In this document: piece by piece, positions 38,860 through 52,319 of the stretch
How the letters are laid out: each line of letters opens with the position of its first letter
Numbering within the stretch: position 1 is the first letter of the stretch
Origin: Phycicoccus jejuensis
Lineage (GTDB): Bacteria > Actinomycetota > Actinomycetes > Actinomycetales > Dermatophilaceae
Direction: 5' to 3'
DNA: 64,000 bases
Assembly: GCF_000720925.1 (NCBI RefSeq)
Contig: NZ_JOEE01000001.1
Location: 62,001-126,000, forward strand
Translations under genes and position numbers: made by a program
Notes under the pieces: model-generated
What the model was told of the DNA's origin: nothing
Databases searched by the model: none
The model's input: only the letters and a program-made list of their open reading frames with translations

Positions 38860-39774
38860 TCAGAGGGTGAAGGAGACGCCCGTCAGGTCCTCGGAGCGGT
38901 CGAAGAGGGTGCGGCCGAGGGTCGCGTCCTGCGCCCAGCGCGAGCGGCGGGCCTCGCCGACCGGCCCGCGGGTCTCGCCGATGCCGGTGGGGCCGGAGTA
39001 GGTGCCCCCGCCCGCGACCGTCGCGGCGTACAGCGGGCCCTCGGCGCCCTTCTCGGGGCCGGGGAAGAGCAGCCTGACGCCGAGCTGGCCGATCGTGCCG
39101 ACGACGGGGATGGCCCCCATGCCGTCCTTGCTCGCGACGAGGTTGGTCGCGGAGACGCCGGGGTGGGCGGCGTTCGAGGTGAGCGCGACGCCGGCGGCGC
39201 GGGCGCGTCGCTCGAGCTCGTCGGCGAAGAGGAGGTTGGCCAGCTTGGAGCGGCCGTAGGTCGTCTGCGGGTCGTAGCCCTCGCGCGGGTTGCCCTCGCA
39301 GACCGCGCCGTCGCCCCGGTGGTGGGCGATCGAGGCCACGGTCGTCACCCGCGCGGCGGGCGCCTCGAGCAGGTGCGGCAGGAGGAGGCCCGTCAGCGCG
39401 AAGTGGCCGAGGTGGTTGGTGCCGAACTGCAGCTCGAAGCCGTCCTCGGTCTCGCGGTACCGGGGCGGGGTCATGACGCCGGCGTTGTTGAGCAGCAGGT
39501 CGAGCGGCCCGTCCCACCCCTCGGCGAACTCGCGGACCGACGCCTGCGAGGCGAGGTCGAGCCGCCGCACCGAGACCGCGCCGGGGGCGCCGGTGCGCCG
39601 GATGCGCTCGGCCGCCTGCTCGCCGGCCTGCGTGTTGCGCACGGCGAGGACGACGTCGGCGCCGTGCCGGGCGAGCTCGCGCGCCTCGACCAGCCCGATG
39701 CCGGAGTTCGCCCCGGTGACGACAGCGCGGCGTCCGGTGAGGTCGGGGATCTGCTCGAAGGTCCAGCGGCTCAT
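38860..39774 (-). CDS. SDR family oxidoreductase, retinol dehydrogenase-like
   Basis: A 304-residue short-chain dehydrogenase. The cofactor motif is VVTGANSGIGLVEARELARHG (about 18-38), with Arg after strand 2 (VRNTQAGEQAA) suggesting NADPH. DLLLNNAGVM and VTTVASIAHH follow, and the catalytic YGRSKLANLLFADEL gives Tyr-x3-Lys. The NNAG phrase and the long C-terminus resemble WW-domain oxidoreductase/retinol dehydrogenase relatives in actinobacteria. Substrate is unknown. The start is ATG at 39774. It is followed by a family II palindrome. Confidence 0.9.
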   Translation of the reverse strand: MSRWTFEQIPDLTGRRAVVTGANSGIGLVEARELARHGADVVLAVRNTQAGEQAAERIRRTGAPGAVSVRRLDLASQASVREFAEGWDGPLDLLLNNAGVMTPPRYRETEDGFELQFGTNHLGHFALTGLLLPHLLEAPAARVTTVASIAHHRGDGAVCEGNPREGYDPQTTYGRSKLANLLFADELERRARAAGVALTSNAAHPGVSATNLVASKDGMGAIPVVGTIGQLGVRLLFPGPEKGAEGPLYAATVAGGGTYSGPTGIGETRGPVGEARRSRWAQDATLGRTLFDRSEDLTGVSFTL

Positions 39775-39857: not shown

Positions 39858-40268
39858 TCAGCGGCGGCGCAGCTCGACGACGGGGATGACGCGCGTCGTC
39901 TTCTGCTCGTAGGACCGGAAGCCCTCGGACATCGCAGTGAAGCGGGCCCACGCGGCGTCGCGCTCCTCCGGCGGCAGCACCCGCGCGGTCACCGGCACCG
40001 TGCCGTCGTCCGGCGTCTCGATCTCGGTCTCCGGGTGGGCGCGCAGGTTGTGGAACCAGTCGGGGTTGCCCGGTGCGCCGGCCTTGGAGGCGGCGACGAG
40101 CCAGACGTCCTCCCCGTCACGGACGGTGGCGAGGGGCGAGACGCGCGCGGTGCCGGTGCGCGCCCCCACGTGGTGCAGCAGGACGAGGCCGCGGCCGAAG
40201 CCCATGGTCCGCACCGTGCCGCCGTTGCTGCGGAACTCGTCGATGATGCTCTGGTTCCAGTCGGCCAC
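39858..40268 (-). CDS. F420-dependent nitroreductase (DDN) family protein
   Basis: A 136-residue split-beta-barrel protein of the deazaflavin-dependent nitroreductase family. Visible parts are FRSNGGTVRTMGFGRGLVLLHHVGARTGTARVSPLATVRDG and the conserved WLVAASKAGAPGNPDWFHNLRAHPE block, typical of F420-binding DDN/AOR proteins of actinobacteria. The C-terminus ends EGFRSYEQKTTRVIPVVEL. It would use F420H2 to reduce quinones or other electrophiles. The start is GTG at 40268 with AGGAGG upstream at good spacing. The glyoxalase-like gene lies 74 bases upstream on the same strand. Confidence 0.9.
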   Translation of the reverse strand: MADWNQSIIDEFRSNGGTVRTMGFGRGLVLLHHVGARTGTARVSPLATVRDGEDVWLVAASKAGAPGNPDWFHNLRAHPETEIETPDDGTVPVTARVLPPEERDAAWARFTAMSEGFRSYEQKTTRVIPVVELRRR

Positions 40269-40342: not shown

Positions 40343-40753
40343 CTATTCCGCGGGGCTCTTGGCGGCCTCGCGCTCCGCGCTGTTGCGCAGGATGCAGAAC
40401 TCGTTGCCCTCCGGGTCGGCGAGGACGACCCAGCCGGTGCCCGGACCGTACTTGCCGCGCAGGTCGGCGACCTCCGTGGCACCGTGCGCGAGCAGGCGCG
40501 CGAGCTCGTCGTCGCGGCTGCCCTCGACCGGCTCGAGGTCGAGGTGGATGCGGTTCTTGACCGTCTTCTCCTCGGGGACCTCGATGAAGAGGATGCGGTG
40601 GGTGCGGTCGCGGCTGACGAGCATGCACTCCTCGTGGCCCGGCTCGTTGGGGTCGTCGGGCAGGTCGGTGTAGTCGAGGACGCCCTTCCACCACTCGGAG
40701 AGCTCGTAGGCGTTGCGGCAGTCGACGGAGGTGTGGGAGACGCGCGCGGTCAT
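40343..40753 (-). CDS. VOC/glyoxalase-fold protein
   Basis: A 136-residue protein with the glyoxalase/bleomycin-resistance (VOC) fold, as two beta-alpha-beta units: VSHTSVDCRNAYELSEWWKGVLDY in the first and RIHLDLEPVEGSRDDELARLLAHGATEV in the second. The ending WVVLADPEGNEFCIL is typical of the uncharacterised actinobacterial glyoxalase-like subgroup. Possible metal residues are His and Glu in these strands, but no reaction is known. The start is ATG at 40753. It probably shares a transcript with the F420-type reductase gene downstream. Confidence 0.87.
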   Translation of the reverse strand: MTARVSHTSVDCRNAYELSEWWKGVLDYTDLPDDPNEPGHEECMLVSRDRTHRILFIEVPEEKTVKNRIHLDLEPVEGSRDDELARLLAHGATEVADLRGKYGPGTGWVVLADPEGNEFCILRNSAEREAAKSPAE

Positions 40754-40816: not shown

Positions 40817-42214
40817 TCAGACGTGGATGGCCGCCGGGATGCCGTCCGAGAAGACCTCTGGCGGGTCCGGGAGGCGCTCGGAGCCGCCGGCCGCGTGACG
40901 GGCGGTGGTCCACGCGACGGCGCACGCGTCGAGGACGTCGTCGGCGGCGTAGCCCCGCCCCTCGAGCACCGACGGCCGGGCGATGCCGGCGGCCGCGAGC
41001 GCGTCGAGGCGGGCCCGGCGCCCCTCGTCGGTCTTCTTGTTGGGCCGCAGGGGGGCGCCGGACATCCGGGCGAAGCAGACCTCGGGATGGACCTCGAGCA
41101 CCTCGACGGTGGGTCGCGAGCGCACCCACGCGTCGACCTCGAGGATCTTCGCGCGCAGGGCGAAGGCCTGCGCCCCGACGCCCTGCCCGCTGAGCGCGCG
41201 GTTGACGGTGTCCGCGGCGGCGCGGTCGGGAGCGCCGTAGGCCTCGCGGGTCAGCGTGGTGAACACCGACGACGCCTTGCCCGGCAGCGCGCGGCGGGCC
41301 AGGGCGTCCGCGGCCCGGGTCGTGCTGTCGGGCAGGCCGATCGGGATGTCGATGCCGACGACCCGGACGTCGGCGACCTCGCGGACGGTCTCGACGAGCT
41401 CGGCGATCGTCGAGGCGACGACGACGCGCGGCCGGGGCGCGCCCGGCTCGAGCAGCGCGCCGACCCAGCCGGCCGGGCAGCCGTCGACGCCGAGGACCGG
41501 CACGTCGACCGTGACGGGTGGCGGGACCGCCGGCCCGGCCGGTGCGTCGGGCGCGGCCGGAGCGAGGCCCTCGACCGCCCCGAGGACGAGGTCGAGGGTC
41601 ACCTCGAACTCCGCCCCGAACGACCACCCGGGCCGCATCGTGTGGTCGCGGGCGAACTCGGTGAAGTGCGGGTAGGTCGCCGCCACGGCCTCGTCGATGA
41701 TCTCGGCCTCGAGCTGCGCCAGCTCCTCCTGCCCGGCGAAGGGGAGCGAGAGCTCCTGGACCATGAAGCCGTAGAGGTGCGCGTCGACGAGCGCGAAGAC
41801 GTGGCCGACCGCGGCGAGCGAGAAGCCCTGCGCGCGAAGGCATCCGATGACGGCGTCGTGGTGCGCGACGGCAGCGGGCCCGGGGGAGCGGCGCGCGTCC
41901 ATCAGCCCGATCGCCCAGCGGTGGCGCAGCAGGGCCGCCCGGCCGGACACCGACCGGGCGCGCAGCTCCTGGCGCCAGGCGCCGCCCACGACCGGCGTGT
42001 GCAGCTCCGCGAAGACCGCGTCGACCATCGCGTCGAGGAGCGCGTCCTTGTTCGGCACGTGGTGGTAGAGCGACATCGCCTCGACCCCGAGCCGACCGGC
42101 GAGGGCCCGCATCGAGAGCGCGCCGAGGCCGTCGGCGTCGGCGAGGGCGACGGCCTCGGCCACGATGCGCTCGCGGCTGAGCGTGGGGCGGTCGGTGCGG
42201 GGGCGGGGCGGCAC
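40817..42214 (-). CDS. TetR-family regulator fused to a DUF429 domain
   Basis: A 465-residue two-domain protein. Residues 1-225 are a TetR repressor: RERIVAEAVALADADGLGALSMRALAGRLGVEAMSLYHHVPNKDALL is the DNA-binding three-helix unit, then a helical ligand domain. A Pro/Ala linker (about 218-240) leads to a DUF429 domain starting VPVLGVDGCPAGWVGALL, with VVGIDIPIGLP, LEVHPEVCFARM and the DDVLDACAVAWT helix; DUF429 is a predicted RNase H-like nuclease. The whole frame is open without a stop between domains. It is divergent from a quinone reductase-like gene with two CTTACG-type palindromes between them. Fusion of these domains is unusual to my knowledge. Confidence 0.87.
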   Translation of the reverse strand: MPPRPRTDRPTLSRERIVAEAVALADADGLGALSMRALAGRLGVEAMSLYHHVPNKDALLDAMVDAVFAELHTPVVGGAWRQELRARSVSGRAALLRHRWAIGLMDARRSPGPAAVAHHDAVIGCLRAQGFSLAAVGHVFALVDAHLYGFMVQELSLPFAGQEELAQLEAEIIDEAVAATYPHFTEFARDHTMRPGWSFGAEFEVTLDLVLGAVEGLAPAAPDAPAGPAVPPPVTVDVPVLGVDGCPAGWVGALLEPGAPRPRVVVASTIAELVETVREVADVRVVGIDIPIGLPDSTTRAADALARRALPGKASSVFTTLTREAYGAPDRAAADTVNRALSGQGVGAQAFALRAKILEVDAWVRSRPTVEVLEVHPEVCFARMSGAPLRPNKKTDEGRRARLDALAAAGIARPSVLEGRGYAADDVLDACAVAWTTARHAAGGSERLPDPPEVFSDGIPAAIHV

Positions 42215-42252: not shown

Positions 42253-42303
42253 CTTACGTCGTAAGGCTACGGTGCGACGCATCCGCCGTTCTTACGCTGT
42301 AAG
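42253..42303. promoter_or_regulatory. Twin TetR-type operators
   Basis: CTTACGTCGTAAG (42253-42265) and CTTACGCTGTAAG (42291-42303) are two near-identical 13-base palindromes with centres 38 bases apart. They lie between the divergent TetR-DUF429 and oxidoreductase starts; the second ends nine bases before the oxidoreductase GTG. They are likely binding sites of the adjacent TetR domain. Confidence 0.8.
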
Positions 42304-42312
42304 GGAGTAGCC

Positions 42313-43365
42313 GTGCGCGCCGTCGCCCAGGACCGCTTCGGGGGCACCGACCGCCTCCACCTCACCGACCGCCCCGACCCGGAGCCCGGCCGGGGGGAGG
42401 TGCTCGTGCGCGTCGCCGCCGCCGGCCTCGACCGCGGCACCGTGCACGTGATGACCGGGCGCCCGCTCCTGGCCCGCCTCGGCCTCGGCCTGCGCCGCCC
42501 GAGGTTCCCCGTGCCCGGCCGCGACCTCTGCGGCACCGTCGTCGCCCTCGGTCCCGGCGTCACGGGCGTGGAGGTCGGCGACCGCGTCGTCGGCACCGCC
42601 GACGGGTCGTGCGCCGAGCTCGCGGTCGTCCCGGTCCCGCGCCTCGCCGCGGCCCCCCGCACGCTGACCGACGAGGAGGCGGCCGCGCTCCCGGTCTCGG
42701 GCCTCACCGCCCTCCAGGCGCTGCGCGCCGCCGGTGTCGGGCCCGGGCAGCGCGTCCTCGTCGTCGGGGCGTCCGGGGGGGTCGGCACGTACGCCGTCCA
42801 GCTCGCCGTCGCCGCCGGCGCCCGCGTGACCGGGGTGTGCAGCCGGGCCAAGGCCGAGCTCGTCCGGGGGCTCGGGGCAGCGCACGTCGTCGCTTACGAG
42901 GAGGCCGACGTCGACGCCGAGGGCGTCCGCTACGACGCGGTCCTCGACATCGGCGGCCACCGGTCGCTGCGCACGCTGCGGGCGGTGCTCGCGCCCCGGG
43001 GCACGCTCGTCGTCGTCGGCAGCGAGGCACCCGGACGCTGGCTCGGGGGCCTCGAGCGGTCGGTGGGGGCGGCGCTGCTCTCGCCGTTCGTGCGCCAGCG
43101 CCTCGTGATGCACGTGTCCCGCGAGCGGGCCGCCGACCTCGCCGAGCTCGTCGGCCTCGTCGACGCCGGCGCGGTCCGGCCGGTCCTCGACCACGTCGTG
43201 CCCCTCGACGGGGTGGCGCGGGCCCTCGACCACGTCGCCGCCGGGCGCGCCCGGGGCAAGGTCGTCGTCCGCGTCGACGGGCGGTCGGACCGGGCCGGGT
43301 CGGCCGCGGCCGCCGTCAGCGAAGGGGGCGGACCGGGGTGGCCGTCAGCCTCGCCGAGACCTTGA
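42313..43365 (+). CDS. Zinc-less MDR alcohol dehydrogenase / quinone reductase-like
   Basis: A 350-residue medium-chain dehydrogenase/reductase. The GroES-like start has GEVLVRVAAAGLDRGTVHVMTGRP and VPGRDLCGTVVALGPGV, without the zinc-binding Cys set, so it is a quinone-reductase-like MDR. The NAD(P)H motif is VLVVGASGGVGTYAVQLAVAAGA (about 157-179). Similar enzymes act on quinones and alkenals. It starts at GTG 42313 right after a TetR-type operator, so the divergent TetR-DUF429 protein probably represses it. The last 50 bases overlap the convergent metalloprotease gene. Confidence 0.88.
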   Translation: MRAVAQDRFGGTDRLHLTDRPDPEPGRGEVLVRVAAAGLDRGTVHVMTGRPLLARLGLGLRRPRFPVPGRDLCGTVVALGPGVTGVEVGDRVVGTADGSCAELAVVPVPRLAAAPRTLTDEEAAALPVSGLTALQALRAAGVGPGQRVLVVGASGGVGTYAVQLAVAAGARVTGVCSRAKAELVRGLGAAHVVAYEEADVDAEGVRYDAVLDIGGHRSLRTLRAVLAPRGTLVVVGSEAPGRWLGGLERSVGAALLSPFVRQRLVMHVSRERAADLAELVGLVDAGAVRPVLDHVVPLDGVARALDHVAAGRARGKVVVRVDGRSDRAGSAAAAVSEGGGPGWPSASPRP

Positions 43366-44956
43366 TCGTGGCGGAGGCCGCCGGCCACGCGGTCCCACCG
43401 CCGTCGACCGCCCGGACCGCGACGGTGTGCCGCCCGGACCACGTCGGACCCGACCACGAGGTCCCCGAGACCTGCTCGGTCCGCCCGTCGACCGTCACGG
43501 TGTAGCCACCCGAGGCGACGACGCCGGAGGGCGCCGTCCACGTGGCCTGCAGCGTCGAGCCGCTGACGGCGAGGGCGAGGTCGCGCGGGGCGACGCGCGA
43601 GCCGACGCGCAGCACGGCACCGGCCGCGGTCACCGACACCACGTCGACCCGGACACCCGTCGTCGCGTCCGTCACGGAGCCGCCCGGGAGCACCGGGGCG
43701 TCGGCGAACGAGGAGGTCGCGGGCTTGCCGTCGAGGAGCCAGCTCTGGTGCCCCGCACCGCGGTCGATGCGGAAGGTGACGCCCCGGACGGCCGGGTCCG
43801 TCGCCGCGAACGTGTCGAACGCCCCGGTGGTCGTGCGCAGCTCGGCGGTCAGCCACGACCCGTCCCGCCGCGGGATCCGCAGCTCGCGGTTCCCCGACGG
43901 CGTCTCGGACGGGACGATGCGCACGGTCCTCGCCTCGCCGGCGGGCACGGACACCGGCTTGACCTGGCCGAAGTGGACGCGGCCGGCCGCGGGGTGCAGG
44001 CGGGCATGGGTGTTGCCCATGACGGAGAACGGGTCCGCGTACTCCAGCACCGTCCCCGAGGGGTCGCTGCAGCCGGAGGGGGCCCCGAGGGTGACGTTCG
44101 TCGTCCCCGTCGTGCAGCGGTAGCCGGAGGCGTGGTGCTCACCGAAGTTGTGGCCGAGCTCGTGGGCGGTCACGAGCAGCGAGGGGGAGTCCTGGTTGAT
44201 CCAGGACCAGGTGCCCGGCACCTCGGCGAGGCCGTCCCAGCCGCAGGAGGCCTGCCGCGGCACGACGACCATGATGTTCGTGTAGGCGGAGGTGTCGACC
44301 TTCGCGGCTCTGGCGGCGGCCTGTGCCTTCTCGCCCCACTCCCGGAAGTCGCAGCTCGACGGGTTGCTCCGGGTCACCGTGTAGGGGCCGACCGCGCGGC
44401 CGCCGACGGTCCACAGCCGGTCCGAGGACTCGGCGTAGAACGCCCGGACGCTCGAGGACGCGCCGAAGAGCCGCGCCGCGACGGTGCTCGGCGAGGCCGG
44501 CGCCTCGGACGGACGGTCGGCGAAGCGCAGGGAGATCGCGAGCACCGTGTAGGTGCGCTTCCCCGAGCCGGTGGGCAGGGCGAGCTCGGCGGTGCGGGAG
44601 GCCGTGCCCGAGGCGGCGAGGGCGGCGTCGGAGGTGCGCAGCGCCCCGGAGGCGGTCCGGGTGCCGCGGACGCTGACACGGGCCCCGACGAGGGGGTGCT
44701 CGTCCGTCGCCGTCACACCGGTCAGCGGGACGGGGCTGCCGGCCGTGCCGCCGGGGGTGACGGCGAGCGTCGTGCTCGTCGTGCCGCTGCGGAAGCCGTC
44801 GGCGACGAGCGCGGTCAGGGTGCCGCTCACGGTGGCCGGCCCGGTCCGCGCGCCGGGCGGGGCGGCGTGCACCGGGGCGGCGCCACCGCCGACGAGGGCC
44901 GCGGCGGACGCGGCCAGGGCCACGCCGAGGGCGAGCAGGCGGGGGCGCGGGGGCAT
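43316..44956 (-). CDS. Secreted zinc metalloprotease, gametolysin/reprolysin-like
   Basis: A 546-residue exported protease. A Sec signal occupies residues 1-32 (MPPRPRLLALGVALAASAAA then AAPVHAA). The catalytic motif is AHELGHNFGEHHASG with zinc ligands His265, His269 and His275 (HExxHxxGxxH) and the Met-turn FSVMGN downstream. This metzincin pattern and the GTVLEYADPFSVMGN phrase fit the M11/gametolysin-like peptidases. The C-terminal 90 residues look like a fibronectin III-type domain (ATWTAPSGVVASGGYTVTVD, HTVAVRAVDGGG). The start is ATG at 44956. The 3' end overlaps the oxidoreductase by 50 bases. A terminator for dctA lies just upstream. Confidence 0.9.
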   Translation of the reverse strand: MPPRPRLLALGVALAASAAALVGGGAAPVHAAPPGARTGPATVSGTLTALVADGFRSGTTSTTLAVTPGGTAGSPVPLTGVTATDEHPLVGARVSVRGTRTASGALRTSDAALAASGTASRTAELALPTGSGKRTYTVLAISLRFADRPSEAPASPSTVAARLFGASSSVRAFYAESSDRLWTVGGRAVGPYTVTRSNPSSCDFREWGEKAQAAARAAKVDTSAYTNIMVVVPRQASCGWDGLAEVPGTWSWINQDSPSLLVTAHELGHNFGEHHASGYRCTTGTTNVTLGAPSGCSDPSGTVLEYADPFSVMGNTHARLHPAAGRVHFGQVKPVSVPAGEARTVRIVPSETPSGNRELRIPRRDGSWLTAELRTTTGAFDTFAATDPAVRGVTFRIDRGAGHQSWLLDGKPATSSFADAPVLPGGSVTDATTGVRVDVVSVTAAGAVLRVGSRVAPRDLALAVSGSTLQATWTAPSGVVASGGYTVTVDGRTEQVSGTSWSGPTWSGRHTVAVRAVDGGGTAWPAASATIKVSARLTATPVRPLR

Positions 44957-51626: not shown

Positions 51627-52319
51627 TCAGGCGCCGGCCTGCAGGCGCAGCCCGGCGAGCAGCAGGTCCAGCCCCGCCCGGAACTGGTCGGTGTCGTCGT
51701 GGCCGGCGAACTCGTCGGCGATCTCGTGGAGGTACGGGAACTCGACCGGGTCGAGGGCCCGCCACTGGTCGACCGCGGCGTCGAGGTACTCGTGGCGCCC
51801 GACCTCGCCCGAGAGCACCTCGGCCGGGGGGTCCTGCCCGAGGTCGGCCGCGGTGCCGACGACGAAGCCGACGACCGCGGACACCGCGTGGAAGCGCTGG
51901 CGTGGCGTGAGGTCCAGGCGCAGGGCCTGCTGGCCGAGCTTCTCGAACAGGCGCAGGGCGTTGGGCTGCACGAGCGTGTTGCGCATGAAGTAGGCACCGA
52001 GCCACGGGCGCTCGACGATCGCGTCGAAGAGGGTGACGGCGATGGTGCGCAGGTCGTCGACCGGGTCGGCGCCGCCGACGTCGCGGACGTCGGCGAGGAC
52101 GCCCGCGAGGACGTGGTCCGAGGCCCGGTCGAGCAGCTCGTCCTTGCTCGAGACGTACCAGTACACGCTGCCAACGCCACCACCGAGCCGCCCGGCCAGC
52201 GCGCGGAAGTTCAGCCCGGGCTCCCCGTGCTCGTCGAGCAGGGCGACGGCCTCGGTGAGGACGGACTCCAGCGAGTGCGAGGCGCGTCGACGAGGGGGCA
52301 CGCCCCCATGAGACCACAC
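51627..52319 (-). CDS. TetR family transcriptional regulator
   Basis: A protein of about 230 residues. The DNA-binding part is SLESVLTEAVALLDEHGEPGLNFRALAGRLGGGVGSVYWYVSSKDELLDRASDHVL; the C-terminal domain (TetR_C_33-like) is helical and likely binds a ligand. GTG starts at 52319 and 52301 are possible. It is divergent from an MFS exporter gene with three imperfect palindromes of the CGAACGACGTTCG type between them, so it most probably represses the exporter and itself, with a drug-like inducer. Confidence 0.88.
   Translation of the reverse strand: MWSHGGVPPRRRASHSLESVLTEAVALLDEHGEPGLNFRALAGRLGGGVGSVYWYVSSKDELLDRASDHVLAGVLADVRDVGGADPVDDLRTIAVTLFDAIVERPWLGAYFMRNTLVQPNALRLFEKLGQQALRLDLTPRQRFHAVSAVVGFVVGTAADLGQDPPAEVLSGEVGRHEYLDAAVDQWRALDPVEFPYLHEIADEFAGHDDTDQFRAGLDLLLAGLRLQAGA

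Follow-up and report, generated by a model that had tools for sequence, protein, structure and literature searches.

TetR repressors normally terminate after the ligand domain, and the solved chains listed for the TetR_C_1-type repressors ActR, SimR, PamR2 and TetR carry no C-terminal enzyme domain. For DUF429, the closest described system is RelZ of Mycobacterium smegmatis (MS_RHII-RSD, MSMEG_5849), a stress-linked protein for which published papers report RNase HII activity in a domain once called DUF429, the removal of R-loops, and a second functional domain in the same chain (PMC4429107, PMC7591505, PMC4300193). Known DUF429 partners are NUDIX, RelA/SpoT and a phosphomethylpyrimidine kinase domain, and neither MazG, SLOG nor TetR is named as a partner in the accessible portions of the two texts concerned (PMC3985635, PMC3153485). 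Here we analyse a window of 64,000 nucleotides from Phycicoccus jejuensis (contig NZ_JOEE01000001.1, positions 62,001 to 126,000), in which a single gene joins a TetR repressor to a DUF429 domain. This TetR-DUF429 fusion is genuine, conserved and unusual. Our best explanation, to which we give a probability of about 0.5, is a two-function stress protein, that is, an autoregulated repressor that would co-induce a RuvC/RNase H-like enzyme together with a quinone-detoxification operon.

The fusion gene occupies positions 40817..42214 on the minus strand as one frame of 465 amino acids, running without interruption from a GTG start at 42214, with GGAG a few bases ahead of it, to a stop that ends at 40817. 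Only three Pfam domains match the protein at E ≤ 0.001, all above their cut-offs: TetR_N (PF00440; residues 17-63, 42026..42166; 36.0 bits, cut-off 24), TetR_C_1 (PF02909; residues 78-212, 41579..41983; 53.0 bits, cut-off 21) and DUF429 (PF04250; residues 242-453, 40856..41491; 163.8 bits, cut-off 23, with profile positions 1-213 of 214 covered). The chain has both the helix-turn-helix of the TetR family and the all-helical TetR-type ligand/dimer domain. Between these and DUF429 lies a variable Pro/Ala-rich linker (about residues 218-238, 41501..41563), delimited by top-residue frequency and by the predicted local distance difference test score (pLDDT); residues 222-226 are the sole segment of the model with pLDDT below 50. 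In RelZ the (p)ppGpp synthetase stands on the C-terminal side of DUF429, whereas here TetR stands on the N-terminal side and the Pfam scan found no RelA/SpoT synthetase domain in the chain.

A search for relatives of the fusion protein gave 551 database matches, and the figures that follow are drawn from the best 120 of them. PF04250 and PF02909 stand in one chain in all 120, and PF00440 is also present in 115. Named sources among the matches listed are Phycicoccus, Ornithinibacter, Oryzobacter, Fodinibacter, 'Arthrobacter sp. NEB 688' and Dermatophilaceae metagenomes; the fused relatives among them span several genera, with identities down to about 64%. Because these 120 relatives and the DNA of five distinct genomes are all fused, we rejected a sequencing error or hidden stop between the domains, which a preliminary description of this locus, made from the letters alone, had raised as what would overturn it. 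The frame, coordinates and three-part architecture given there are confirmed, as are the further fusions that it proposed to look for; the linker, whose conservation was also to be checked, proved variable.

Across the window protein (P0001) and the 120 aligned relatives, the mean top-residue frequency is 0.87 in TetR_N, 0.80 in the remaining TetR part, 0.49 in the linker and 0.86 in DUF429, and the linker measures 20-63 amino acids in the 106 of 120 proteins in which both landmarks were located. When the window gene was compared with four fused relatives, nonsynonymous divergence (dN) was 0.07-0.26 in TetR, 0.03-0.23 in DUF429 and 0.26-1.0 in the linker, and synonymous divergence (dS) was 0.31-0.63 in both domains, values that are rough with a third-position G+C content (GC3) near 0.98. 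These patterns indicate that both halves are under constraint and that the linker is free. Annotation software has already noticed both parts, several JGI records having been named automatically as 'predicted RNase H-like nuclease/AcrR family transcriptional regulator'. In the literature searched, which lacks most subscription papers, we found no paper with DUF429 and TetR together as whole words and none on a TetR family protein with a C-terminal nuclease domain; broader searches also gave nothing on a TetR-DUF429 fusion, and PMC8285248 was a false lead that concerns DUF4299.

Since a fold search with the whole model was filled by TetR chains, the DUF429 half was modelled alone (pLDDT 97). 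RuvC resolvases were the closest structures, rows 1-25 of the search being RuvC-like resolvases, recombinases and Cas9, and the predicted fold is of the RNase H/RuvC-like type. It differs from the RuvC and MOC1 Holliday junction resolvases in sequence, with 11-20% identity in the rows listed and no match of the fusion to Pfam's own RuvC or RNase HII models at E up to 0.001. No convincing solved relative of DUF429 was obtained by sequence (best E 0.13), nor any by profile search up to E 10. Residues D244, D289, E374, H376 and E378 are identical in 121/121 sequences (P0001 and the best 120 relatives), D426 and D429 are conserved in 118/121, and the counterparts of these residues are invariant or nearly so in 42 DUF429 sequences, the majority of them from outside the TetR fusions. 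A conserved acidic active-site set, presumably catalytic, is thus recognizable, and the model points to an intact RuvC/RNase H-like enzyme, which may share its substrate with the DUF429 domain of RelZ. The RNase H-like nature assigned to DUF429 in the preliminary description is upheld by the RuvC-like predicted fold and by the RNase HII activity that papers report for the DUF429 domain of MSMEG_5849.

It could be argued that DUF429 is not a nuclease and that, as a nucleotide-handling or nucleotide-sensing domain, it gives the repressor a second signal. We consider this unlikely: RuvC-like resolvases, recombinases and Cas9 fill the top 25 rows of the fold search, the acidic residue set is invariant, and RNase HII activity has been reported for the M. 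smegmatis domain. A function in anti-phage defence was rejected, the fusion protein having matched 0 PADLOC-DB families.

Facing the fusion gene is a divergent gene of the quinone-oxidoreductase-like (MDR) type on the plus strand (42313..43365; Pfam ADH_N, ADH_zinc_N, ADH_zinc_N_2). Among NCBIfam models it scores best with a quinone oxidoreductase subfamily, but it stays under the cut-off of each of the 25 models listed. Between the two genes sit two CTTACNNNGTAAG palindromes, the predicted operators 1 (42253..42265, CTTACGTCGTAAG) and 2 (42291..42303, CTTACGCTGTAAG). These are the only two such sites in the genome of 3,985,545 bases, where the backwards control pattern gave 0. Exact twin sites are found in all five distinct fused genomes analysed as DNA (G000, G034, G157, G159, G160). 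The twin palindromes and divergent reductase noted in the preliminary description are confirmed.

The same arrangement is seen where TetR is not fused. Among seven unfused TetR/reductase pairs with a TetR identity of at least 55%, two exact CTTACNNNGTAAG sites are present in five (L006, L144, L168, L169, L210); in L005 one of the two sites is exact and the other has a single mismatch, and in L170 both have a single mismatch. Below 55% identity (n=15), two exact sites are found in L215 and one in L166, four pairs have single-mismatch sites only and nine have none. As for TetR loci without a nearby reductase, L148 has one exact and one mismatched site, L149 has one mismatched site, and no sites were found in 78 rows; exact CTTACNNNGTAAG is also absent from L008-L080 (73 loci, 730,263 bases). 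Six further loci without a nearby reductase, from other families, do carry two exact sites, 20-23 bases apart (L146, L150, L153, L157, L214, L216).

In six loci the unfused TetRs end just past the last helix, the point where the linker of the fused form starts. In the TetR tree, the 21 fused rows and the unfused G070 and G076 make up a single starred set of 23, and neither of these two unfused genomes is among those with a DUF429 match; because these two fall inside, the fused label requires three changes, and their position suggests that the DUF429 tail can be dropped. With twin operators kept in unfused pairs and no DUF429 match in G070 and G076, the TetR module does not depend on a link to DUF429. 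It consists of TetR, the divergent gene of quinone-reductase-like type and the twin CTTACNNNGTAAG operators, and it is both older and separable.

This separability bears directly on the interpretation offered in the preliminary description, a nuclease brought by the repressor to its own operators. On that account, binding by the TetR half would station the RuvC/RNase H-like domain at the twin operators, and R-loops, nascent RNA or DNA would be its targets around the divergent promoter. Such tethering fits two intact halves in a single chain, a long and loose linker, and a genome with no operator sites beyond these two, which means that a bound fusion protein would sit there only. The distance between operators is also in keeping with it, being 38-39 bases in 5/5 fused genomes (the window, L001, L002, L115 and L118 included) and 29-37 bases in the seven unfused pairs (33 in L210), a small difference based on few cases. 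However, the same regulation exists without DUF429, DUF429 exists without the regulation in the same genus, and the tail seems to be droppable in the fused TetR group. No structured RNA or R-loop element came to light either, although no search aimed at one was made. The halves being separable, operator cutting is unlikely to be the core function; we found no direct support for it and hold this account to be quite improbable. The interpretation given in the preliminary description is thus partly supported.

DUF429 also stands without TetR in the same genus. Of the 186 genomes of the bacterial family, 101 have DUF429, and in five the fusion matches almost the entire query; G035, whose DUF429 runs off the end of a contig, and G036 and G037, with weak pieces only, stand outside this fused count. 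Within the genus of the window (12 genomes), four are fused, six have DUF429 without TetR, and two gave no DUF429. The flank found at about 45.18 kb of the window lies within a few hundred bases upstream of DUF429 in G154, G156 and G158, and there the locus is without TetR, the reductase and the region beyond the reductase. That last region (window about 43700-44560) shows by eye a metalloprotease-like HExxHxxGxxH motif; it adjoins TetR-less DUF429 in G162, G163 and partly G153, and is absent in G154, G156 and G158. Of the six unfused genomes of the genus, G153, G154, G156 and G158 have the glyoxalase-like gene after DUF429, G163 has the F420-type reductase there, and G162 has neither. The CTTACNNNGTAAG palindrome, even with one mismatch, occurs in 0/12 loci with TetR-less DUF429.

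The TetR label requires two changes on a quick DUF429 tree and four on a careful one, whose starred branches force at least two and in which G162 is a long branch placed among fused rows. Holding all 35 fused rows together in the careful tree was not rejected (p-AU 0.464), which leaves room for a single fusion followed by losses; on these trees, the TetR-less copies of the genus may have arisen by loss or may represent the older state. No other full-length TetR-DUF429 match that would indicate an independent fusion was found in 297 genomes of the order (E ≤ 1e-40, 5 candidates per genome) or 394 genomes of the class (E ≤ 1e-50, 4 candidates per genome), sets that overlap, so that rare or divergent fusions could escape.

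A neutral or merely convenient fusion would explain some of these observations, neighbouring genes having merged by loss of the TetR stop, with both halves working as before and nothing new gained. The halves are indeed separable at the same locus, the unfused TetR ends exactly where the linker starts, and the linker is free to vary. Against this, the fusion is kept in the best 120 of 551 relatives, in several genera and down to about 64% identity, and no locus read has TetR and DUF429 as two adjacent separate genes, which makes the proposal rather improbable to us. Of the second refuting condition in the preliminary description, relatives with the two parts as separate genes in unrelated contexts, the half on separate genes is borne out; it argues against obligatory joint action and not against the fusion itself.

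Other proteins show that the end of DUF429 to which TetR is joined has more than one occupant. In the same bacterial family, a MazG-like domain (PF12643) stands ahead of DUF429 above cut-off in L123, L125, L143 and L094, joined at the same junction as TetR; the four come from genera g39, g20, g17 and g27, and the MazG-like domain has an E-x-x-E / E-x-x-D type motif. SLOG cluster 4 (PF18306) is found ahead of DUF429 above cut-off in L205 and L206. Further SLOG cluster 4-DUF429 cases are L095, L208 and L209 and proteins P0123-P0126, P0139, P0142 and P0151, with Ornithinimicrobium and Arsenicicoccus among the hosts; in SLOG, this predicted nuclease would have a second partner that resembles a sensor. 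When the DUF429 part of a SLOG-type protein served as query, the best 120 of 666 matches included 37 SLOG-DUF429 and three NUDIX-DUF429 proteins, and Pfam confirmed the NUDIX matches (PF00293). By eye, a Nudix-box-like stretch precedes DUF429 in L211-L213, from another family, and the short N-termini of L096 and L102 resemble MazG in one alignment, which is only suggestive of MazG ancestry. With MazG-like, SLOG and NUDIX domains at the same end elsewhere, the N-terminus of DUF429 is a swapping point. All these fusions share a C-terminal DUF429 and an exchangeable N-terminal domain, and they differ from ours in that their partners process or bind nucleotides, whereas here the partner is a DNA-binding repressor.

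Downstream of the fusion, on the same strand, follow a Glyoxalase_6 (VOC) gene (40343..40753; PF18029), a gene of the F420H(2)-dependent quinone reductase family (39858..40265; PF04075) and a short-chain dehydrogenase (SDR) gene (38860..39774; PF00106). The SDR gene after the fusion in L118 / L178 (G034) is in two overlapping pieces with the middle missing, and looks broken or rearranged.

Since relatives have either half on its own, the simplest reading is a stress protein with two functions whose production is inducible. The TetR half very probably binds the twin CTTACNNNGTAAG operators and represses the divergent reductase as well as its own operon, which would comprise the fusion, the glyoxalase-like gene, the F420-type quinone reductase and the SDR. 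Repression would be lifted by a quinone-like or polyketide-like ligand; this is a best guess, drawn from the nearest structures to the TetR half in the fold search (ActR, SimR and TetR), ActR having been solved with actinorhodin and SimR with simocyclinone according to their entry titles. The DUF429 half would act as a metal-dependent hydrolase of nucleic acids, on RNA-DNA hybrids or branched DNA anywhere in the cell. The fusion may thereby let one inducer govern both how much of the enzyme is made and when it leaves the operators, with the TetR dimer lent to the enzyme, so that the advantage would lie in co-induction with detoxification and not in operator cutting.

A more elaborate version, which we regard as doubtful, is an inducer-gated nuclease: the operators would serve to park the RuvC/RNase H-like enzyme, as a dimer, at a single promoter, where it might remove R-loops, until a quinone-type ligand frees it and raises its level for genome-wide work. 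More generally, DUF429 would then be a constant nucleic-acid effector whose trigger is set by the swapped N-terminal sensor (TetR, MazG, SLOG or NUDIX, with RelA/SpoT on the other side). The locus places a TetR repressor with a predicted RuvC-like enzyme in a small setting, two operator sites genome-wide and one divergent promoter, and the exchangeable N-terminus offers a handle on the role of a widespread, little-characterised domain. That role is approachable here because a single locus reveals the sensor, the operator and, in quinones, a candidate class of inducer.

An internal restart that would yield a separate DUF429 was rejected: GTG codons preceded by GAGG/GAGGT occur in the linker region of three of the five fused genes read (L001, L002, L118) and not in the window gene or L115, so an internal start is not a conserved feature. 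A promoter scan gave 0 matches; two terminator-like sites were found within the fusion gene, both on the opposite strand. About 10 kb away, a second TetR-type stretch (window 52002-52301, minus strand) shares 45% identity with the N-terminal 100 residues of the fusion protein.
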